From contig NZ_RAPR01000001.1 in NCBI RefSeq assembly GCF_003610235.1, positions 3,720,001 to 3,784,000 on the forward strand: a stretch of 64,000 nt of DNA. Reading direction: 5' to 3'. The notes below the pieces were generated by a model. The model ran no database searches. It was not told the DNA's origin and saw only the letters and a program-made list of their open reading frames with translations. Position 1 is the stretch's first letter, and every line of letters starts with the position of its first letter. The position numbers and the translations under genes were made by a program. This DNA is from Catellatospora citrea (GTDB lineage Bacteria; Actinomycetota; Actinomycetes; Mycobacteriales; Micromonosporaceae). This document shows, piece after piece, positions 50,457 to 60,788 of the stretch.

Positions 50457-52100
50457 CTACGATGAGCTACCGTCTCCCAGCTTTCTGATCAACTCGAGCC
50501 GGGTCCGCACCCCGAGCTTGCGGTAGATGCTCGCCAGGTGGGTCTCCACGGTCCGCTCGCCGAGGACCAGGGCGCTCGCGATCTCCTTCGCGGGTGCTCC
50601 GCGCAACGCCCACGCCAGCACCTCCCGCTCCCGCGCGGTCAGCCCGCCCGGCCCGGCTTCCGGGCCCGACCAGCTACGCAGCGCCCGATCGGCGACCTCC
50701 GCCGCGGCCGGATCGACGAGCTGCCCGGCGGCCAGTGCCCGGTCGGCTGCCGCCGGATCGGGGCGGCCGCGCAGGGCGGACAGCTCGGCCGCGGCCCGCA
50801 GCGCGTACCAGCGCACCAGCGCCGTGGGACGCCCCTCGCCGAGCGCCGCCGTCTGGGCCAGCAGCGCCATGGCCCGGCTCTTCTCGCCCCGCCGCACCGC
50901 GTCGGCCGCCGCCAGGTCGTACGCCCGGGCCTGCAGCTCGACGTCGCCCAGCGCGGCGGCCTCGCGTACCACCTGATCCAGCCGACCGCCCGCAGCCAGC
51001 AGCGCCTCCGCCACGGCCCGCGGGTCGCCACCGGCGCGGGCCAGCGCCAGCGCCCGCTCGGCCAGTTCGGCCTGCCCCAGCTCGTCGGCCAGCCGCGCCA
51101 TGAGCCGCGCCGCGGCCGAGTGCTGCTCCGGCGGCAATCCCGTGGCGGGCAGAGCGGCGCAGGCGTCCCGCAGCGCGGCCACCCGCACCGGATCCGCCGG
51201 CACGAGACCCGCTCCGGCCAAGGCACCGGCGCTCGGGCGCGGGCTCAGCCCCAGCGCCGCCGCGGCGATCAAGCCGAGATCTCCCGCGCGCAGGCCCAGC
51301 CGCAGCGCGCCGGTCAGCGACGCGCGGCCCGCCTCGCGGGCCGCCGCGCTGCCCGCGCCGCGCAGCCGGGCCGTGCCGGAGGCCGCGAGCAGCCGCCCGG
51401 CCTGCGCCGGCGTCCACCCGGCCCGCCCGGCGAACAGCGCGGCCTGCGCGAAGTAGCCCGCGGCCAGCTCGTAGACACCCTCCTCGTCGGCGGCGGCGGC
51501 CGCGGTGGCCGACGCGGCGACCGCGGCGTCCAGGCGCGCCGCCCCGCCCAGCGCCGCCGCCTCGGCGGTGTGGTGCGCCAGCTCCGGCAGGGTCGCCGCG
51601 CGCGTCCCGCCGAGCGCGCCGAGCCGGGCCAGCACCCCGGCGACCCGCTCGTGCAGCGCCGCGCGGGAACGCGCGCCGAGCGTGTCGTAGCAGACCTCGC
51701 GGTCCAGCGCGCGCACGAAGCCGTACACCTGGGGGCCCTGCTCGCGGACCAGCCCGGCCGCGGCGGCGTCGTCCAGGCCGCTCAGCACGTCCAGGTCGGG
51801 GCAGACGCCCTCCAGGATGGACAGGTCGAACTCGCGCCCGATCACGGCGGCCGCGGTCACCGTCTCGCGCGCGTCCGGCTCCAGCGACCGCAGCGCCGCG
51901 CGCACCGGCTCGGCCAGTTCCTCGGGCCAGCGCAGCGGCACCCGGTACAGCCCGTCGCCGTCGCCGTCGACCTGGTCGGCGATCGCCGCCAGCACTGTCG
52001 GGTCGGCGTCCGTACGCCGCAGCAGCTGCTCCACGAGACGGGGCGACGGCGCTCGGCCGAGGCGTTCCCGCAGCAGCTCAGCAGCCTGACGACGATCCAC
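50457..52100 (-). CDS. LuxR-type regulator lacking the NTPase domain of the LAL family
   Basis: The protein has 547 residues. The N-terminus (RPAPSPRLVEQLL-like GRAPSPRLVEQLLRRTDADP) and the winged segment (SLEPDARETVTAAAVIGREFDLSILE) match the region directly after the P-loop NTPase of large LAL regulators. A long helical repeat region follows. The C-terminal LuxR HTH is LTAREREVLAWALRGAPAKEIASALVLGERTVETHLASIYRKLGV. No Walker A motif exists, so the ATPase core is missing. GGGGAGG lies six bases before GTG 52100. It diverges from the Pro-rich protein gene and may regulate it. Confidence 0.8.
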   Translation of the reverse strand: MDRRQAAELLRERLGRAPSPRLVEQLLRRTDADPTVLAAIADQVDGDGDGLYRVPLRWPEELAEPVRAALRSLEPDARETVTAAAVIGREFDLSILEGVCPDLDVLSGLDDAAAAGLVREQGPQVYGFVRALDREVCYDTLGARSRAALHERVAGVLARLGALGGTRAATLPELAHHTAEAAALGGAARLDAAVAASATAAAAADEEGVYELAAGYFAQAALFAGRAGWTPAQAGRLLAASGTARLRGAGSAAAREAGRASLTGALRLGLRAGDLGLIAAAALGLSPRPSAGALAGAGLVPADPVRVAALRDACAALPATGLPPEQHSAAARLMARLADELGQAELAERALALARAGGDPRAVAEALLAAGGRLDQVVREAAALGDVELQARAYDLAAADAVRRGEKSRAMALLAQTAALGEGRPTALVRWYALRAAAELSALRGRPDPAAADRALAAGQLVDPAAAEVADRALRSWSGPEAGPGGLTAREREVLAWALRGAPAKEIASALVLGERTVETHLASIYRKLGVRTRLELIRKLGDGSSS

Positions 52101-52262: not shown

Positions 52263-53480
52263 ATGTCCCAGTTCCGCGATCTCATCGCCAGGATGGCGGT
52301 GGACCCGGAGTTCGCCCGGCACGCACGGGCCAATCCGGACGCCGTCGCCGCCCAGTACGGCCTCACCCCCGACGAGACCGACCAGCTGCGCGGCCTCGCC
52401 GACGCCTCGGCCGGCGCCGGGCCCACCGCCCTGGGCGTACGCCTGTCCAAGTCCGGCATCGGCACCGGCGGCCTCGGCAGCCTGATCTCCCCCGCCGACC
52501 TGGCCCCGGACCTGCCGGACGTGCCGGACGACGAGCCGACGGCGCCACTGCCGCCCGCCGACCTGACCCCGGTCGAGCTGGCGCCGATCCACCTCACGCC
52601 CGCCGACCTCACGCCGGACGCCGAAGAGGAGCCGCCGCCTCCGCCGCCGCTCCCGCTGCCGGACGCCATCCACCTGCCACCGGACCTCGAACTCGTCCCG
52701 CTGGACCCGGACCCCGAGCCGGACCCGATCATCCCGCCGATCATCCAGCTCCCGCCGGACTTCAACTTCCCGGAGCTCGACCCCGACCCCGAGCCGGACC
52801 CGATCGTCCCGCCGATCATCCACCTGCCGCCGGACCTCGACCTCTCGGACTTCCCCGAGCTCGAGCCCATCCCGGACCCGCCCGGCCCGTGGATCCCGCC
52901 GATCCACCTGCCCCCGGACCTCGACCTCTCGGACTTCCCGGAGCTCGAGCCCATCCCGGACCCGCCCGGCCCGTGGATCCCGCCGATCCACCTGCCCCCG
53001 GACCTAGGCCTGGACCCGGACCTGGAGCCCGCCGAACCGGCCGAGCCCGCGGAGCCCGCGGAACCGGCCGAGCCCGCCGAGCCCGCACCGCCGCCGCCGG
53101 CTCCTGAGCCCGCACCCGAACCCGCTCCGGCTCCCGACCCGGCTCCGGCGCCGCCCGCACCGGCCCCCGCGCCGGCCGCGGACCCTGTGGTCGCGCCCGC
53201 TGAGGAATCCGGTCCGGTCGTCGTGGTCGTGCAGTCCGGCGACCCGGCCGCGCCCGCTCCCGGCACGGACCCGGCCCAGGCCGGCGCCGCCCAGGCGGAT
53301 GCCGTCCAGGCCGACCTGGCCGCCGCGAGCGAGAGCTCGGACGGCATCGGCGCCGAGGAGCTGATCATCGGCGGAGCCGGCCTGGCCGCGGGTGCGGTCG
53401 CGGGCGGCGTCGCCGGTGCGGTGGCAGGCAAGGCCTTCAAGTCCGACGAGGACGGGACCGAGGCCACCGCGACGGCCTGA
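52263..53480 (+). CDS. leader-like N-terminus fused to Pro/Asp/Glu repeats and a C-terminal membrane segment
   Basis: The protein has 405 residues. Residues 1-48 (SQFRDLIARMAVDPEFARHA, then AVAAQYGLTPDETDQLRGLA) form a small helical domain resembling LigA/NHLP-like RiPP leader peptides. A Pro/Asp/Glu tract follows, with 28-residue repeats beginning HLPPDLDLSDFPELEP, then PAEPAEP and Pro-Ala runs. Near the C-terminus a Gly/Ala hydrophobic segment (ELIIGGAGLAAGAVAGG) precedes a short charged tail. No catalytic motif and no Sec signal are seen. AAGGGAG precedes ATG 52263. Its role is unknown; it could be a surface protein or a substrate of the downstream protease. Confidence 0.7.
   Translation: MSQFRDLIARMAVDPEFARHARANPDAVAAQYGLTPDETDQLRGLADASAGAGPTALGVRLSKSGIGTGGLGSLISPADLAPDLPDVPDDEPTAPLPPADLTPVELAPIHLTPADLTPDAEEEPPPPPPLPLPDAIHLPPDLELVPLDPDPEPDPIIPPIIQLPPDFNFPELDPDPEPDPIVPPIIHLPPDLDLSDFPELEPIPDPPGPWIPPIHLPPDLDLSDFPELEPIPDPPGPWIPPIHLPPDLGLDPDLEPAEPAEPAEPAEPAEPAEPAPPPPAPEPAPEPAPAPDPAPAPPAPAPAPAADPVVAPAEESGPVVVVVQSGDPAAPAPGTDPAQAGAAQADAVQADLAAASESSDGIGAEELIIGGAGLAAGAVAGGVAGAVAGKAFKSDEDGTEATATA
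52821..53090 (+). repeat. 84-bp tandem repeats and PAEP tract in the Pro-rich gene
   Basis: Near-identical 84-base units start at 52821 and 52905, and a partial third starts at 52989. Each encodes 28 residues (HLPPDLDLSDFPELEP and on). From about 53030 short CCNGCNGAG-type repeats encode PAEPAEP. Confidence 0.9.
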
Positions 53481-53496
53481 CCGTCCGCACCAGACA

Positions 53497-53541
53497 CCGG
53501 GCAGCAGGGGTGTGCGCCCCCGTCGCACCTCTGCTGCCCGG
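53497..53541 (+). terminator. terminator after the Pro-rich gene
   Basis: A 16-bp stem with one mismatch (53497-53512/53526-53541) and a 13-base loop ends the transcript before the protease-kinase operon. Confidence 0.75.
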
Positions 53542-53630
53542 GCACATCGGCCGCGCACCCATCGATGAACCGCCTGAACGGATCACCGTCGTAAAGCAGT
53601 CAGCCGAGAGCGTGCAGCCGTTCGGCCGCC

Positions 53631-53636
53631 TATGAT
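53631..53636 (+). promoter_or_regulatory. -10 element of the protease-kinase operon
   Basis: TATGAT is a good -10 hexamer and gives a leader of roughly 35 bases before ATG 53679. The -35 is not obvious. Confidence 0.5.
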
Positions 53637-53678
53637 TCGGCTCGCCGCACGGCTCCATACCCCTTGAAAGGCCGACCG

Positions 53679-55409
53679 ATGTTGTGCCACGCCTGCCATG
53701 TGCACCTGCGGCGGGACTACCCGTACTGCCTGCACTGCGGCACGCTGCGCAAGGGCGCCGTCGTGGACTCGTACGCGGCGCCGGAGCTGCGGTGGGCCGA
53801 CGCCGCGGGTGAGCGGGTCCACCCGCTCGTCAAGCCCACCACCACGATCGGCCGCAGCCCCGACAACGACATCGTGCTCGACGACGCCAGCGTCTCGCGC
53901 CACCACGCCCGGGTCGTGCGCAACGCCGAGGGCTTCCACCTGGAGGACCTCAACTCGTTCAACGGCACCACGATCGGCAAGCGCACCTTCCACGGCGACT
54001 GGGCCCCGCTGCCCGACGAGTCCAAACTGCACATCGGCGACATACCGCTGCGATTCGCGCAGCCGCGCTCGGCGGCGATCGGCTCCAAGACGATGGTGCG
54101 CGGCGTCGAGCACAGCATCCTGCTGCCCGCCCCGGAAACCGAGGAGGCGCCGACGGCCACCGGCCCGCTCACGGCACGCCCGCGGCGGCGCAGCGGCTGG
54201 GCCCTCAAGCAGGTGCCGGACATGCGCGGCGACCAGCAGTGGGTGCTGCGCAACACCCGCACCGGCCAGTACCTGCAGCTCGACGAGCGCGACGTGTTCC
54301 TGTGGCACCAGCTCGACGGTGAGAACACCGTGCGCGACCTGCTCTTCGCGTACGCCCAGCGCTACGGCGAGCTGGCGCTGCCCCGCATCGAGCGCACCCT
54401 GCGCACCTTCGCGGCACTGGAGCTGGTGCGCGGCCTGCACGGCCAGCGCGAGGCCGAGAAGCCGCCGCTGCTCAAGCGCTTCGGACAGGCGGTGGTGAAG
54501 ACGCTGCTGCGCATGGAGGTGTCGGTCAAGGGCCTCGACAGCGTGTTCGGCCGGATGTACCGGTCGTTCGGCTGGCGCTTCTTCACGCGTACCGGCGTGG
54601 TGGGGCTCTGGTTGTGCATCCTCGGCGGCATCTACGCCATGGCCGTGGCCAGCGCCCACCAGAACCTGTTCGACATCAACGGCGCGGGCGTCTGGGGCGC
54701 GATCGTCATCGCCGCCGGCTACCTGGTCGCGCTGATCGTGCACGAGTCGGCGCACGCGCTGGCCGTCAAGTCCTACGGCCGCACCGTCACCCGCGGCGGG
54801 TTCATGCTGATGATGGGCATGCCGTTCGCCTTCGTGGACACCTCGGACATGTGGTTCGGCAGCCGCTGGTCGCGCATCGTGGTGACACTGTCCGGGCCGC
54901 TGTCGACCGCGGCCATCGCCGGGATGCTCGCCGCGGTCGCCGCCTGGGTGCCCGCGCCGCAGGTGTCCGGCATCGCCTACCAGCTGGCCTTCGGCCTCTA
55001 CCTGAACACGCTGTACAACCTGAACCCGCTGATGCCGCTCGACGGATACCAGGCGCTCGCGGACGCGCTGCGGCTGCCGCGCATGCGCGAAGAGGCGTCG
55101 GCGTACTTCACCAAGGGCATCTGGTCCGACATCAAGGCCGGTCGCAAGCCCGGCATCAAGCAGATAGGCATGGCGGCGTACGGCTTCACCGCCGTCGTCG
55201 GCACCGGCCTGTTCGTGCTGCTGGGCTTCCTCGCCTGGCGCGACCGGCTCGGCGGGCTCGTCGACGAGTACCTGCCGCCCGGCATCGACGTGCTGGTCAT
55301 CGTGCTCGGCATCGGCCTGATCATGTTCCCGATCTGGTACCGGCTGTTCCGCAAGCTGACCGGCTTCATCAAGTCCCGTAAGGCCGCAACGGCGGAGGTG
55401 GCGGCATGA
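53679..55409 (+). CDS. zinc-ribbon/FHA/PqqD-like/M50 membrane metalloprotease
   Basis: The protein has 576 residues. The N-terminus has a CxxC...CxxC zinc ribbon (Cys3, 6, 17, 20). Residues ~45-130 are an FHA domain (TTIGRSPDNDIVLDDASVSRHHARV, LNSFNGTTI) that should bind phospho-Thr. Residues ~172-255 are a PqqD-like winged helix (QVPDMRGDQQWVLRNTRTGQ, LDERDVFLWHQLDGENTVRD). From ~305 a multi-pass M50/site-2-protease domain has HESAH (355-359) and NPLMPLDGY with Asp455 as third zinc ligand. All catalytic residues are present. GAAAGG precedes ATG 53679. The stop overlaps the kinase ATG (ATGA). Confidence 0.85.
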   Translation: MLCHACHVHLRRDYPYCLHCGTLRKGAVVDSYAAPELRWADAAGERVHPLVKPTTTIGRSPDNDIVLDDASVSRHHARVVRNAEGFHLEDLNSFNGTTIGKRTFHGDWAPLPDESKLHIGDIPLRFAQPRSAAIGSKTMVRGVEHSILLPAPETEEAPTATGPLTARPRRRSGWALKQVPDMRGDQQWVLRNTRTGQYLQLDERDVFLWHQLDGENTVRDLLFAYAQRYGELALPRIERTLRTFAALELVRGLHGQREAEKPPLLKRFGQAVVKTLLRMEVSVKGLDSVFGRMYRSFGWRFFTRTGVVGLWLCILGGIYAMAVASAHQNLFDINGAGVWGAIVIAAGYLVALIVHESAHALAVKSYGRTVTRGGFMLMMGMPFAFVDTSDMWFGSRWSRIVVTLSGPLSTAAIAGMLAAVAAWVPAPQVSGIAYQLAFGLYLNTLYNLNPLMPLDGYQALADALRLPRMREEASAYFTKGIWSDIKAGRKPGIKQIGMAAYGFTAVVGTGLFVLLGFLAWRDRLGGLVDEYLPPGIDVLVIVLGIGLIMFPIWYRLFRKLTGFIKSRKAATAEVAA

Positions 55410-56995
55410 GCCAGCCCATGTGGACCGTTCCTGGATACATCGAGATCCGCGAGCTGGGGCGCGGTGCGTCCGGGCTGGTGGTGCTCGCCGAGCACGAGGC
55501 GACCCAGGTCAAGGTCGCCATCAAGTACCTGGCCGAGCAACTGCGCGACGACGAGACCTTCATCCGGGCGTTCCGGGCCGAGGCCCGGGTCATGGCCGAG
55601 GTGGAGTCGCCGCAGGTCGCGCGGCTGTACGAGTACATCGAAGCGCCCGGCGGCGCGGCGATCGTGATGGAGCTGGTCGACGGCGTCGCGCTGCGCGCGA
55701 TCCTGCGCGAACAGGGCCCCACCGAGCCCGAAGCGGCCCTGGTGGTGCTGAAGGGCTCGCTGCTCGGCCTGGCCGCCGCCCACGACCGCGGCGTCGTGCA
55801 CCGCGACTACAAGCCCGAGAACGTGCTCGTCAACGGCGAGGGCCAGAGCAAGCTGGCCGACTTCGGCATCTCCGCGCGCAGCGGCCGCCAGGGCCCGCTC
55901 GCCGGCACGCCGTCGTACATGGCGCCCGAGCAGTGGGCCGGCGCTCCCGCCAGCCCGTCGACCGACATCTACGCCGCGACCGCCACGTTCTTCGAGTGCC
56001 TGGCCGGTCAGCCGCCGTTCCGCGCCCCCGGCGACATCCAGGGCCTGCGCCGCCAGCACGAGCAGGCGCCGGTCCCGGTGGAGCTGGTGCCCGAAGCCGT
56101 ACGCGGGCTGGTGCGCCGTGGCCTGGCCAAGGACGCCAAGCAGCGCCCCAAGGACGCCGCGACGTTCCTGCGCGAGCTGGAGGCCGTCGCCGGGGCCGGT
56201 TACGGGGCCGAATGGGAGGAGGAGGGCCGCAGCAAACTGGCCCGCCGCGCGCTGCTGCTGGCGCTGCTGTTCCCGCTGGCCGCGGTGCAGGCCAACGCCA
56301 CCGCCATCGGCACCACGATCCTCGGCATGTCCCGCAAGGCGTTCACCCTGGCGGCCAGCATCACGGCGCTGGTGCTGATCCTGGGCGGCGCCGGGGCCGC
56401 GGCGCTGTGGCCGACGAGCACCAGCCCGACGCCACTGCCCAGCGTGAGCGCAGCCGCGGACGTATCGCCGTCGCCGTCGCCGAGCGAGTCGCCGTCACCC
56501 TCCCCGTCACCGAGCGAGTCGCCGTCGGAGAGCCCTTCCCCGTCGCCCTCCCCGTCAGACGAGCCGGAGCCGAGCCCCAGCAAGAAGCCGTCCCCCAAAC
56601 CCTCTCCGTCCCCGTCGCCGTCGCCGTCGCCCACACCCACCATCGGGGTCTTCGTGTTGAACATCGACCGCGGCAACGTGTGCATCCTCAAGGCCTGCAC
56701 GGAGAGCATCATCGCCAACACGACGTTCCGGCCGACGGGTTCCGGCAACGCCCGGGTCTACATCGAGTTCATCCAGTCCGGTGACGGCAAGAACCCTGCC
56801 GCATCTGCCGCCGCTCCGACGTACAAGGACTTCACCGTCCCCAGTAGTGATCCGTACACCTACGGTAAGTCGATGGCGCTCGGACAGGCCTGTGGCAACT
56901 ACAGCTACTCGATCGTCAAGGCATGGATCGTTGTCGGAGGGAAGACCGTGATGAGTGACACGAAGTCGATCTACTGCGGGCCGATCATCAGATGA
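55406..56995 (+). CDS. membrane Ser/Thr protein kinase with Ser-Pro linker and exported domain
   Basis: The protein has 529 residues. The kinase domain (11-262) is complete: Gly loop ELGRGASGLV, ATP-binding Lys40 (VKVAIKYL), catalytic loop VVHRDYKPENVLV (Asp134), DFG at 152, and APE at 173-175. Two hydrophobic stretches (~281-300 and ~312-334) suggest a membrane hairpin or one segment plus a juxtamembrane helix. A (Ser-Pro)n linker of ~60 residues leads to an exported domain with four cysteines (NVCILKACTES, GQACGNYS, IYCGPII). It can phosphorylate FHA ligands for the neighbouring protease. The stop overlaps the next ATG (ATGA). Confidence 0.9.
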   Translation: MSQPMWTVPGYIEIRELGRGASGLVVLAEHEATQVKVAIKYLAEQLRDDETFIRAFRAEARVMAEVESPQVARLYEYIEAPGGAAIVMELVDGVALRAILREQGPTEPEAALVVLKGSLLGLAAAHDRGVVHRDYKPENVLVNGEGQSKLADFGISARSGRQGPLAGTPSYMAPEQWAGAPASPSTDIYAATATFFECLAGQPPFRAPGDIQGLRRQHEQAPVPVELVPEAVRGLVRRGLAKDAKQRPKDAATFLRELEAVAGAGYGAEWEEEGRSKLARRALLLALLFPLAAVQANATAIGTTILGMSRKAFTLAASITALVLILGGAGAAALWPTSTSPTPLPSVSAAADVSPSPSPSESPSPSPSPSESPSESPSPSPSPSDEPEPSPSKKPSPKPSPSPSPSPSPTPTIGVFVLNIDRGNVCILKACTESIIANTTFRPTGSGNARVYIEFIQSGDGKNPAASAAAPTYKDFTVPSSDPYTYGKSMALGQACGNYSYSIVKAWIVVGGKTVMSDTKSIYCGPIIR

Positions 56996-58578
56996 GCACT
57001 GTGATCGGGGGCAAATACACCCTGCTGGACGCGGGGCGGGCCGGGCGGCTCGGCACGTGGCACACGGTGTCCACAGCGGAGGGCAAGCAGCGCGGTGCGC
57101 TGCGCCTGGAGGACCGGGGTCTGACCGACCCGGCGGCGGCACAGCGGCTCGCCGACGCGGTCAGCGCCCAGGCCCGCCTGCGCGTGCCCGGCCTGCTCAA
57201 CGTCATCGACCAGGTGACCGAGGGCAGGCACAGCTGGCTGATCACCAATGCGGCACCGTCGCCGACGGTGGCCCAGGCGCTGGCGGCCGGGGTGACCCTG
57301 CCCGCCGCCGTGGCCGCGCTGATCGCCACCGACACCGCCCAGACGCTGCTCCGGCTGCACCAGGCCCAGCTCGCGCACGGCGAGCTGAACACCCACGGCG
57401 TCGTGGTCAGCGCCGGAGGCGCGGCCCTGCTGTCCGAGGCCGGTTACGGGCACGCGGTGCTCGGCACGACCCCCGGCCCCGGCCATGACGCGGCCGGCTG
57501 GTCCCGGTTGCTGGCCGAGCTCGCCGACGCCTGTCACGACGCCGAGACCCGGCAACTGCTGCGCCATGCCGGGCAGCAGGCCGAGGCGGTCGGCGGCAGT
57601 GCCGGTCTGACCGCTGCGTTGAACACGCTGAGCGCAGCCGCGCAGCGGATCCCCGGCTTCGGTGACCGCGCCGCGCTGAAGGCGCTCGCCGCGCAGATGC
57701 ACCCGATGTCCGCCGCGCCCGTCTCCGCACCGCCTGTCTCCGCACCGCCTTTCTCCGCACGACCCGTTTCAGCTCCTCCTGTTTCTGCGCCGCCGGTGTC
57801 CGCGCCGCCCGCGGCTCCCGTGGCCGGGATGCCCGGTGGCGTCCCGGCGGCCGAGGAGACGGTGCAGTTGCCCGGCGGCTCCCACTCCGCACCGCCGGTG
57901 CCGCAGCAGACGCCGCGGGCCACCCCGCCGACCGCGGTGATGCCGGTCGTGCCGCCGGACGGGGCGACCCGGCTCGGCAACCGCGCCGCCGAGGAGCAGC
58001 GCCAGTCCGGGGCGTACCAAGTCGGCCGGGCCGCCCCGCCCCCGGCGCACCAGCCGCAGCAGGACGTGAACCTGCGGTTCGGGCAGGGTGTGCCGCCCGC
58101 GCCGCCCGCCTGGCAGGTGGCCGCCGCGCAGGCCGCCCCGCCGCCCCGGCGCAAGAAGTCGGTCGGCAAGCGCATCGCCGCGTTCTTCAGCGCGCTGACC
58201 ACGGTCGCGCTGCTGGTCATCGCAGGCTATGTTGCCTGGACCTGGTGGCAGGAGAACAACAACGCCGTACAGGTCACCAAGGTCACCGTCACGCCGGTCA
58301 TTCCGCCGACCACCGCCGAGTGCGACGTGAACATCGACGTGGTGGGCCTCATCGAGACCGACGGCCAGGCCGGGAAGATCACGTACCAGTGGCTGCGCAA
58401 CGACGGCGAGACGTCCGGCTTGCTGGAGCAGGCGGTCAAGAAGGGCCAGCGCAGCGTCCAGGTGCACCTGTTCTGGCGCTTCCAGGGCAAGGGCACCCGC
58501 GACGCCGAAGCCACCCTGCGCATCCTGAAGCCCACTGTCGTCCAGGGCGCGTCGAAGTTCACGTACTCCTGCAAGTGA
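56992..58578 (+). CDS. membrane pseudokinase paired with the Ser/Thr kinase
   Basis: The protein has 528 residues. Residues 7-225 keep the outline of a Ser/Thr kinase, but the VAIK Lys is Arg38 (GALRLED), the HRD motif reads HGELNTHG (129-136) and the DFG position reads SEAGYG. All three catalytic motifs are lost. A Pro/Ala/Ser linker with repeated PPVSAPPV follows, then one membrane segment (~397-419, TTVALLVIAGYVAWTWW). An exported ~105-residue Ig-like domain with two cysteines ends it (ECDVNIDVV, KFTYSCK). ATG 56992 overlaps the kinase stop. A regulatory or scaffolding role for the kinase is inferred. Confidence 0.85.
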   Translation: MSTVIGGKYTLLDAGRAGRLGTWHTVSTAEGKQRGALRLEDRGLTDPAAAQRLADAVSAQARLRVPGLLNVIDQVTEGRHSWLITNAAPSPTVAQALAAGVTLPAAVAALIATDTAQTLLRLHQAQLAHGELNTHGVVVSAGGAALLSEAGYGHAVLGTTPGPGHDAAGWSRLLAELADACHDAETRQLLRHAGQQAEAVGGSAGLTAALNTLSAAAQRIPGFGDRAALKALAAQMHPMSAAPVSAPPVSAPPFSARPVSAPPVSAPPVSAPPAAPVAGMPGGVPAAEETVQLPGGSHSAPPVPQQTPRATPPTAVMPVVPPDGATRLGNRAAEEQRQSGAYQVGRAAPPPAHQPQQDVNLRFGQGVPPAPPAWQVAAAQAAPPPRRKKSVGKRIAAFFSALTTVALLVIAGYVAWTWWQENNNAVQVTKVTVTPVIPPTTAECDVNIDVVGLIETDGQAGKITYQWLRNDGETSGLLEQAVKKGQRSVQVHLFWRFQGKGTRDAEATLRILKPTVVQGASKFTYSCK

Positions 58579-58825: not shown

Positions 58826-59049
58826 GCGGACACCGCCTCGACGTCCGCCCGATGCCGGACGAGCCGGGGCGACTGGGTACGCATGACCTGCTCACGCGTC
58901 ACGCGATGGGTGCACGCGCCGCAGACCGCACCGACCGCGCCGCCGCATGACGCACACCAGCTCGCCGCATGTCCGCGCAGGAACCATCCGGCGAGCATGG
59001 CCAGCAGTACGACCATGCCGAGTCCGGCGATGGCCAGATAGACTGCCAT
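58822..59049 (-). CDS. small membrane protein with zinc-ribbon-like cysteines
   Basis: The protein has 75 residues. An N-terminal membrane segment (AVYLAIAGLGMVVLLAMLAGWFL) is followed by WCASCGG and VCGACTH, two CxxC pairs that form a zinc ribbon. A basic tail ends it. GGAGGTGG precedes ATG 59049. It heads a two-gene unit divergent from the DUF5753 remnant. Its role is unknown; anchoring of a regulator is one possibility. Confidence 0.72.
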   Translation of the reverse strand: MAVYLAIAGLGMVVLLAMLAGWFLRGHAASWCASCGGAVGAVCGACTHRVTREQVMRTQSPRLVRHRADVEAVSA

Positions 59050-59209
59050 GAACCACCTCCAGTGGAGTTGTGGTGGAGGCGGGGCGCCGGGGCCAACCAG
59101 TCAGCCCCGCCTCCGACCTGGCCGCCCGTTCGCCAGACAGCCTTTCGAGGGATCAATCGATCGACATTCTGCCCGATGCAATCTGCGCGTTCGCCTCGCC
59201 GGAGAGTCC

Positions 59210-59806
59210 GGCCGACGCGGCTGGTGGCAGGACTACGACCTGCCGGAGTGGTTCAACGTGTACGTGGGCCTTGAAAGTGCGGCCTCCACCGTCGCCAACT
59301 TCGAGACGCACCTGATCCCCGGCCTGCTCCAAACCCCGGCATACGCGCGGGCACTTATCCGTCACGCCCAGCCGACTATGGCCGCCGAACGAGTAGATCT
59401 TTTGGTCAGGGCTCGACTGGTAAGGCAGACAAGGCTCACCAACGACGATCCTTTGCGTTTGCGAGCCTTGATCGGCGAAGCTGCCCTACACTGCGTCGTC
59501 GGCACCCCCAACGAGATGCAGGAGCAGTTCACGCACCTCGCGACCATGAGCCGGGCTGCCAACGTCGAGATTCGTGTCGTGCCGTTTACCTCGCCCGCCT
59601 ACGCCGTGCATGGTCGCTCGGTGGTCATCCTCGACTTCCCTGGAACCGGAGATCCCGGGCTGGCTTACTTTGACCACCTCGGCAAGGGATCATATGTTGA
59701 GGACGACGCCCAAGTCGCCGCACACCGCATGGCCTTCGAACTGCTTGTCGGAGCTGCACTGAGCGTCGAAGAATCCACCAAGCTGTTCTTGGAGCGGGGG
59801 AAGTGA
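59210..59806 (+). pseudogene. XRE-family regulator remnant, DUF5753 only
   Basis: About 195 residues match the C-terminal DUF5753 domain of XRE regulators, from WWQDYDLPEWFNVYVGLESAA through LIPGLLQTPAYARALIRHAQP to the end. The N-terminal HTH that should precede it is absent. The in-frame sequence before 59210 is Arg/Pro/Gly-rich without HTH features. No Shine-Dalgarno start fits. The 5' part seems to have been deleted or replaced near the divergent zinc-ribbon gene. The stop overlaps the DUF397 GTG as in intact loci. Confidence 0.65.
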
Positions 59807-60003
59807 CCGTGTTCGACAACGCCGTCTGGGTGAAGAGCAGCCGCAGTGACAGTCAGGGCGGCCAGTGCGTCGAGGTCGCTGTCACCCCCGCCGCTGTCGG
59901 CGTCCGTGACAGCAAGGATCAGGACGGCGCTGTTCTTGCCTTCACCACCGACGGCTGGGCTGCGTTCCTTTCCGGGGTCAAAGCCGGCGAGTTCGACCGT
60001 TGA
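59803..60003 (+). CDS. DUF397 protein, copy 1
   Basis: The protein has 66 residues: WVKSSRSDSQGGQCVEVAV and VRDSKDQDG, with the end FTTDGWAAFLSGVKAGEF. DUF397 proteins (such as BldB-associated or antitoxin-like partners) are encoded next to XRE/DUF5753 regulators. GTG 59803 overlaps the remnant's stop (GTGA). Confidence 0.85.
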   Translation: MTVFDNAVWVKSSRSDSQGGQCVEVAVTPAAVGVRDSKDQDGAVLAFTTDGWAAFLSGVKAGEFDR

Positions 60004-60272: not shown

Positions 60273-60788
60273 ATGCAGGTGAACCTCGTACAGGGCGACA
60301 TCACGCGTCAGGAAGTGGACGCGATCGTCAACGCGGCCAACTCGTCGCTGCTCGGCGGCGGTGGCGTGGACGGCGCGATCCACCGCAAGGGCGGCCCGGA
60401 GATCCTCGCCGAGTGCCGGGCGCTGCGCGCCTCCCACTACGGCCGAGGGCTGCCCACCGGACAGGCCGTCGCCACCACCGCAGGCAAGCTGCCCGCGCGC
60501 TGGGTGGTACACACCGTCGGACCCGTGTACAGCGCCACCGAGGACCGCGCCGAGCTGCTGCGCGACTGCTACCGCAACGCGCTGCGGGTGGCGGGCGAGC
60601 TGGGCGCGCGTACCGTCGCCTTCCCGCTGATCTCGTCGGGCATCTACGGCTGGCCGATCGACGACGCCGTCCGCCGGGCCCTGGACGTGCTGGAGAACGC
60701 CGACACCACGGTCGAGGAAGCCACGCTGGTCCTTTTCGACGAGCCCACCTACCGGACCGCTTCGGGCATCCAGGCCGGTCGGAGCTAG
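60273..60788 (+). CDS. macrodomain O-acetyl-ADP-ribose deacetylase-like protein
   Basis: The protein has 171 residues and is a single MacroD-type macrodomain. The ADP-ribose site has GDITRQEVDAIVNAANSSLL, the Gly loop GGGGVDGAIH, and FPLISSGIYGWPIDDA. The Asn and Asp residues used for hydrolysis are present. It removes ADP-ribose from proteins or deacetylates O-acetyl-ADP-ribose. It follows the second DUF397 gene after 15 bases and may belong to the same transcript. Confidence 0.9.
   Translation: MQVNLVQGDITRQEVDAIVNAANSSLLGGGGVDGAIHRKGGPEILAECRALRASHYGRGLPTGQAVATTAGKLPARWVVHTVGPVYSATEDRAELLRDCYRNALRVAGELGARTVAFPLISSGIYGWPIDDAVRRALDVLENADTTVEEATLVLFDEPTYRTASGIQAGRS

Follow-up and report, generated by a model that had tools for sequence, protein, structure and literature searches.

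A leader-like N-terminal tag paired with a PqqD-M50 protease in Catellatospora points to an undescribed processing or sorting system for large proteins

In the GlyGly-CTERM/rhombosortase and MYXO-CTERM/myxosortase systems, a homologous tag is carried by unrelated proteins that share one intramembrane protease (PMC3237569; PMC11980579), and GlyGly-CTERM and rhombosortase genes are adjacent where there is one target and apart otherwise (PMC3237569). In pathways for ribosomally synthesized and post-translationally modified peptides (RiPPs), NHLP leaders use helix 1 together with a post-helix strand to bind RiPP recognition element (RRE) domains (PMC12455567). M50 enzymes act in the maturation of epipeptides (EpeP) and pearlins (TglG and TmoG), with EpeP thought to both cleave and export (PMC10885120). 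Here, we describe a locus in a 64,000-nucleotide window of Catellatospora citrea DNA (positions 3720001-3784000 of contig C1 in a 9.33-Mb genome, G000), in which a protein with an NHLP-like N-terminal tag is encoded upstream of a protease that combines a zinc ribbon and FHA, PqqD-like and M50 parts. We propose, with a probability of roughly 0.55, that the tag is a processing or sorting signal on large, mostly repeat-rich proteins, read by the PqqD domain and cut by the M50 domain, with kinase/FHA control in most loci of the FHA type.

Four consecutive open reading frames (ORFs) on the plus strand, at 52263-58578, encode the tag protein, the protease, a Ser/Thr kinase and a pseudokinase. The tag gene lies 198 bp from the protease gene, and ATGA overlaps occur at the protease/kinase and kinase/pseudokinase junctions; the initial annotation had reported these ORFs and overlaps, and both agree with the coordinates. 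The features of the first two genes are the following:

52263..53480, plus strand: tag protein, 405 amino acids (aa), with the NHLP-like tag, a Pro-rich repeat body and a C-terminal hydrophobic segment
52263..52412, plus strand: helical tag, residues 1-50 (structure model; profile match to the Os1348 structure 6lk7)
52413..52490, plus strand: conserved flexible post-helix segment, residues 51-76 (alignment and structure model)
52440..52454, plus strand: R60-L-S-K-S motif (alignment of tags)
53361..53417, plus strand: Gly/Ala-rich hydrophobic segment, residues 367-385 of the tag protein (hydropathy)
53679..55409, plus strand: zinc-ribbon/FHA/PqqD/M50 protein, 576 aa
53841..54038, plus strand: FHA domain, residues 55-120 (Pfam; fold match to EmbR and other FHA domains)
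54198..54416, plus strand: PqqD-like domain, residues 174-246 (Pfam, profile search and structure model)
54741..54755, plus strand: M50 HExxH, residues 355-359 (alignment of 49 sequences)
55041..55043, plus strand: M50 Asp455 of the N447/P450/D455/G456 motif (invariant in 49 sequences)

The pairing of tag and protease is well supported by their distribution. A draw of 200 Micromonosporaceae genomes, searched for PqqD-M50 relatives at E 1e-30 and for tags at E 1e-4, gave 103 genomes with the former and 82 with the latter; 79 held both, 24 the M50 relative only, 3 the tag only and 94 neither. Fisher's test on these counts gave 1.4e-29, with no correction for ancestry. The tag was present in 21/21 Micromonosporaceae genomes with a full-length FHA-type protease; one of them, G087, was counted through an unlinked tag gene, its linked one being cut at a contig end with the C-terminal part visible. 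The loci named here are the best 80 of 222 relatives, and 38 of these 80 carry the full-length protease. All 38 have a tag protein in the genome, 28 of them within the fetched locus. The refuting condition named in the initial annotation, absence of the leader-like protein from most genomes with the protease-kinase operon, was thus not borne out in either sample. In 27 of the 28 linked cases, the tag gene precedes the protease gene in the same orientation, with 9 to 298 bp between the end of its frame and the start of the protease, and in L107 the tag lies about 7 kb downstream. For the other ten loci it is elsewhere in the genome, as seen by direct search for six (L090, L099, L106, L108, L109 and L111) and from the same contigs in the genome draw for four (L079, L082, L086 and L114, which correspond to G087, G129, G094 and G040); the L106 match falls in a 3,126-aa open frame, the position of which fits a long frame abutting the protease. 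Weak rows are L079, L082, L086, L090 and L099, in which a contig ends 600 bp or less upstream of the protease, L075, in which no M50 gene was called, and L113, the assembly of which interrupts the frames of both protease and kinase and was taken as found. Gene calls in the compared loci came from a simple codon-usage script; six-frame ORFs were used for the locus counts because this script had miscalled Streptomyces tag genes on the opposite strand.

The tag recurs on unrelated proteins, including unlinked ones, a point absent from the initial annotation. Among 16 tag proteins, median pairwise identity was 62% over residues 1-48, 54% over residues 49-76, 36% over the body and 30% over the last 50 residues, and the body value is close to the 33% obtained when one partner was shuffled. 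The bodies are rich in Pro, Gly or Ser/Thr, or contain DxDxDG-type motifs or other repeats, and tag proteins range from 92 aa (L107) to 2,216 aa (L105). Pfam recognised PF02412 (thrombospondin type 3 repeats) in two tag homologues; the 38 listed homologues of the window's tag are unnamed or annotated just as hypothetical or uncharacterized. Six tag matches were found in G600, a Chloroflexi metagenome-assembled genome (MAG), and all eleven Catellatospora genomes have an additional match in an open frame of 105-192 aa. The second tag protein of the window's genome (104 aa, G000:C1:6649653-6649967, minus strand) shares the tag (RLSKSGIGSGGLAGLL) but its tail is unrelated, and no M50 match was found within the 19-kb surroundings of its gene. 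In G062 and G040, the tag and kinase genes are adjacent to each other and about 19 and 30 kb from the protease and pseudokinase genes, i.e., the set is split but kept.

A genome may encode several unrelated tag proteins, as many as six in G600, and their bodies are large and divergent; this fits substrates better than a single regulator. In the latter case, the tag would bind PqqD and switch the M50 domain, and the protease would cut something else, such as an anti-sigma factor, by regulated intramembrane proteolysis. The kinase, pseudokinase and FHA domain do resemble signalling parts, and a LuxR-type divergent neighbour is present in Micromonosporaceae loci where visible; nevertheless, no anti-sigma factor was recognised adjoining the genes, and we regard a regulatory tag protein as unlikely, although worth keeping in view. 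As substrates, the tag proteins show the many-to-one pairing of the GlyGly-CTERM type. In the CTERM systems, the tag is C-terminal (motif, transmembrane helix and basic cluster) and the protease belongs to the rhomboid or CPBP type, whereas here an N-terminal NHLP-like tag is paired with a PqqD-M50 protease with FHA. The tag-protease set works like GlyGly-CTERM/rhombosortase and is not a member of it.

Two unlinked loci add to the inventory of repeats: the body of the tag protein L165:9434-10210:+ is an array of CDGHS/CNGH-like repeats, and L162:6261-6791:+, about 6 kb away from a tag-kinase pair that is itself unlinked, encodes a 176-aa protein made up almost entirely of DxDxDG-type repeats, which by eye resembles the C-terminal part of the second-architecture tag proteins described below.

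The initial annotation had placed a RiPP-leader-like N-terminus in residues 1-48 of the Pro-rich protein. The likeness holds, with a match to NF038399 (Os1348 family, NHLP clan) of 2e-7 and 31 bits, below the cut-off of 40; its extent is corrected, the conserved tag reaching about residue 76. Homologous tags in G576 score 40.1 to 44.2 bits with the same model, and at the level of sequence the wider tag family touches the NHLP clan. The best solved relative of the tag profile is Os1348 of Pseudomonas sp. Os17 (PDB 6LK7, 2.1e-6), which differs from the tag system in its small size (85 aa) and in belonging to a putative bacteriocin cluster, the predicted peptidase of which is described as gluzincin-like (PMC7726476). 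The tag is related to Os1348, SonA and NHLP leaders. In the structure model, helices are predicted at residues 3-13, 15-23, 25-32 and 36-50, and residues 51-76 are flexible; they include the R60-L-S-K-S motif, with R60 invariant in 31 aligned tags. The Pro-rich protein was described as a membrane protein; its hydrophobic segment is C-terminal, and such a segment is found in 13/34 tag proteins at FHA-class loci. Membrane anchoring was therefore rejected as a common trait of tag proteins.

A predicted helical leader with a post-helix motif and a putative RRE-type winged-helix reader recall NHLP-leader RiPPs, in which the core is short and YcaO-modified (PMC12455567), unlike the long, unconserved bodies found here with no maturation enzyme recognised nearby. 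On a RiPP reading, the tag would be a conventional leader that the M50 enzyme removes, and modification would fall on the body or on a core; the tag is NHLP-like, and PqqD and M50 do occur in RiPP pathways. Eleven scanned neighbour proteins (part of the region's genes) included no maturation enzyme of the radical SAM, YcaO, lanthionine or any other kind, and Pfam and NCBIfam models recognised none among the four operon proteins. Since the scanned neighbours lack such an enzyme, a RiPP precursor is disfavoured, and the length and divergence of the bodies add to making this explanation improbable. Elsewhere, at L166:2689-9390, an NHLP peptide that scores 48.6 bits with NF038399, more than the cut-off, is encoded among genes that by eye are radical-SAM-like; the cluster is probably of the usual RiPP kind and distinct from the tag-protease system.

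The protease has the zinc-ribbon/FHA/PqqD-like/M50 composition given in the initial annotation, and its catalytic motifs are intact. The zinc ribbon consists of two CxxC pairs, seen by eye. The FHA assignment is certain (PF00498, 7.6e-16; fold matches to EmbR and other FHA domains). Pfam scores of the window protease for PqqD (1.6e-4, 22.3 bits against a gathering score of 23.4) and M50 (2.4e-4) are below gathering, and a 49-sequence profile matched the solved PqqD 3g2b (E 0.0098) and the archaeal M50 protease 3b4r (1e-4). PqqD is an RRE-type domain. In the AlphaFold2 model, residues 174-246 form three strands followed by three helices, with predicted local distance difference test (pLDDT) values of 69-72 in the strands and 81-85 in the helices. 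This order is the one expected of a winged helix; the fold search gave no match for that region, and with the full protease model it was uninformative on PqqD and M50 because FHA domains filled the match lists. Residues H355, E356, H359, N447, P450 and D455 are invariant in the 49 sequences, and hydropathy indicates five hydrophobic segments; the protein therefore combines membrane segments with both hallmarks of M50/site-2 proteases, HExxH and the distal Asp motif. EpeP, TglG and TmoG are likewise membrane M50 proteases, acting on ribosomal precursor peptides; their products are small peptides, and they are not known to involve an FHA domain, a kinase pair or large tagged proteins (PMC10885120). 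The best NCBIfam match, over PqqD and M50, is the daptide HExxH protease model NF041824 (residues 179-525, 3.7e-41, 141.5 bits); the score is below the cut-off of 300, and the FHA domain and zinc ribbon are additional here.

In the other Micromonosporaceae matches viewed, the PqqD-M50 part lies inside proteins of 1,010-1,163 aa with no FHA part. Pfam recognised M50 alone in one such protein, in which cyclic-nucleotide-like and FecR-like parts were read by eye. For this second architecture, 20 loci were fetched, one of them with no called M50; a 71-aa zinc-ribbon protein is often found near the protease, and a tag protein of 233-354 aa, picked by eye, in 14/19 loci. Profile searches run either way show that the two architectures have homologous tag sets (hhalign 97.6%). 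Farther away, the Chloroflexaceae relative L117 has PF00027 at 8.1e-23, and the distant Actinomycetota locus L185 encodes, consecutively, a short tag protein, a protein that by eye is cyclic-nucleotide-binding-like, and M50. NF038399 points to the same places in G299, G277, G348, G224 and G576. Adjacent genes are often inherited together and our statistics are not corrected for ancestry, so that tag protein and protease could be co-expressed envelope genes with no direct contact; a pairing that holds across two architectures, distant classes, a Chloroflexi MAG and unlinked genes leaves this with little likelihood.

L182 and L183 encode an FHA-PqqD-M50 protein directly followed by a tag protein, downstream of contractile-injection genes, an arrangement that would suit a tag by which cargo is loaded into contractile injection systems. 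The window's genome lacks CIS_tube PF19266, as do 9/11 Catellatospora genomes, all 11 of which have tags; a cargo signal was thus rejected for the window's genome and is very improbable in general. In these two loci (L182:417-11250 and L183:630-14115), the FHA-PqqD-M50 and tag genes follow injection genes for tube and baseplate proteins as well as genes for PASTA-domain proteins, and a Peptidase_M23 domain is part of the tag protein of L183.

Several observations weigh against the proposed tag function or narrow its scope. The window's own tag protein (P0001) does not reach the NF038399 cut-off, and the absence of signal peptides from tag proteins was judged by hydropathy alone. Among 82 Micromonosporaceae genomes with the second architecture only, 58 show a tag and 24 do not; 23 of these 24 belong to one genus group (g29), and a repeat search of eight of the 24 at E 1 returned partial matches alone, the best at 0.0026. 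In a draw of 396 genomes across the phylum, 26 had an M50 relative, 10 a tag (1e-6) and 4 both, the 6 tag-only genomes all having weak matches (4.9e-9 or worse); G299, G277 and G224 added weaker tags beside or near the protease. An NF038399 search of 16 distant M50 genomes left 10 with no match, and the match in G380 is on another contig. Given the tag-less M50 genomes and the distant non-matches, tag dependence is limited to the FHA class and part of the remainder, and does not extend to every PqqD-M50 protein.

The last two genes of the operon are the following:

55406..56995, plus strand: Ser/Thr kinase, 529 aa, with a hydrophobic segment at residues 315-333 and a variable C-terminal ectodomain
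56992..58578, plus strand: pseudokinase, 528 aa, with a hydrophobic segment at residues 395-413 and a C-terminal domain

Both assignments hold at the motif level. Lys, HRD and DFG are retained in 33/35 kinase-like sequences, and the kinase looks active from its motifs. In 27 aligned pseudokinases, HR is replaced by HG and DFG by a Glu-containing stretch, the catalytic-Lys position being judged by eye. Compared with Catellatospora paridis, in which the protease is 98% identical, kinase residues 1-265 are 99% identical and the last 120 residues just 18%, as expected of a fast-changing sensor. The kinase domains of the close relatives L079-L083 are likewise 95-99% identical to that of the window, with the last 120 residues at 18-24% in L079, L080, L081 and L083 and at 92% in L082; this swapping of ectodomains looks like allelic sensor diversification. 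Kinase matches occur in 31/38 full-length-protease loci, and the pseudokinase tail also in 31/38. The partner logic originally proposed, a PqqD-M50 protein with a leader-domain protein, agrees with the co-occurrence and with the winged-helix-like secondary structure of the PqqD region. Phospho-gating looks like an add-on, since loci can do without the kinase and the second architecture has no FHA.

The tag layout is that of NHLP leaders, PqqD is RRE-type and M50 enzymes act on precursor peptides; the simplest mechanism is thus docking followed by a cut behind the tag. Large, mostly repeat-rich proteins would be assigned by an NHLP/RiPP-leader-type tag to a single intramembrane protease dedicated to them. 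The PqqD domain would bind the helical tag together with the post-helix segment containing R60-L-S-K-S, which probably extends the PqqD sheet by a strand in the way that NHLPs bind RRE domains. Docking would place the M50 active site at the junction that follows the tag, where the tag, including that of the Pro-rich protein, would be cut off, and its removal may release, anchor or help export the body, in keeping with a putative surface or export role. In the FHA type, the kinase with its variable ectodomain and the pseudokinase partner may sense the outside, and binding of phospho-Thr by FHA would gate the protease.

The many-to-one pattern is that of the rhombosortase type and the recognition logic that of NHLP-RRE pairs; the system therefore joins two known kinds of logic. 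In a literature search whose coverage left out most subscription journals, the pairing of a PqqD-M50 protein with large NHLP-tagged proteins was not described anywhere. Together, these results point to an undescribed processing or sorting system for large tagged proteins, possibly under signal control. More tentatively, and at clearly less than even odds, it may be a new sorting system in which a RiPP-leader-related tag replaces the Sec signal on very large repeat proteins and a sensor-gated PqqD-M50 protease admits and matures them; this reading covers Actinomycetota and at least one Chloroflexi lineage, with FHA/kinase or, in relatives, cyclic-nucleotide-binding domains as the sensor. If so, a broader tag-reader-protease logic for whole proteins would include RiPP leaders as one of its branches, and leader recognition known from peptide natural products would serve the processing or sorting of proteins thousands of residues long, possibly under an outside signal. 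The tag also offers a candidate substrate for a widespread M50 class (103/200 Micromonosporaceae genomes) and, being readable, lists candidate substrates in each genome.

One further gene adjoins the tag gene on the other strand and is the conserved divergent neighbour in Micromonosporaceae loci where visible:

50457..52100, minus strand: divergent LuxR-family regulator (PF00196, 2.1e-16; GTG start inferred from orthologues)

Downstream, a macro-domain protein (window 60273-60788, plus strand; PF01661, 2.3e-43) is encoded 3′ of the operon in most Catellatospora loci viewed, and a DUF5753 and DUF397 gene pair (window 59048-60003, plus strand) lies between the operon and the macro-domain gene.

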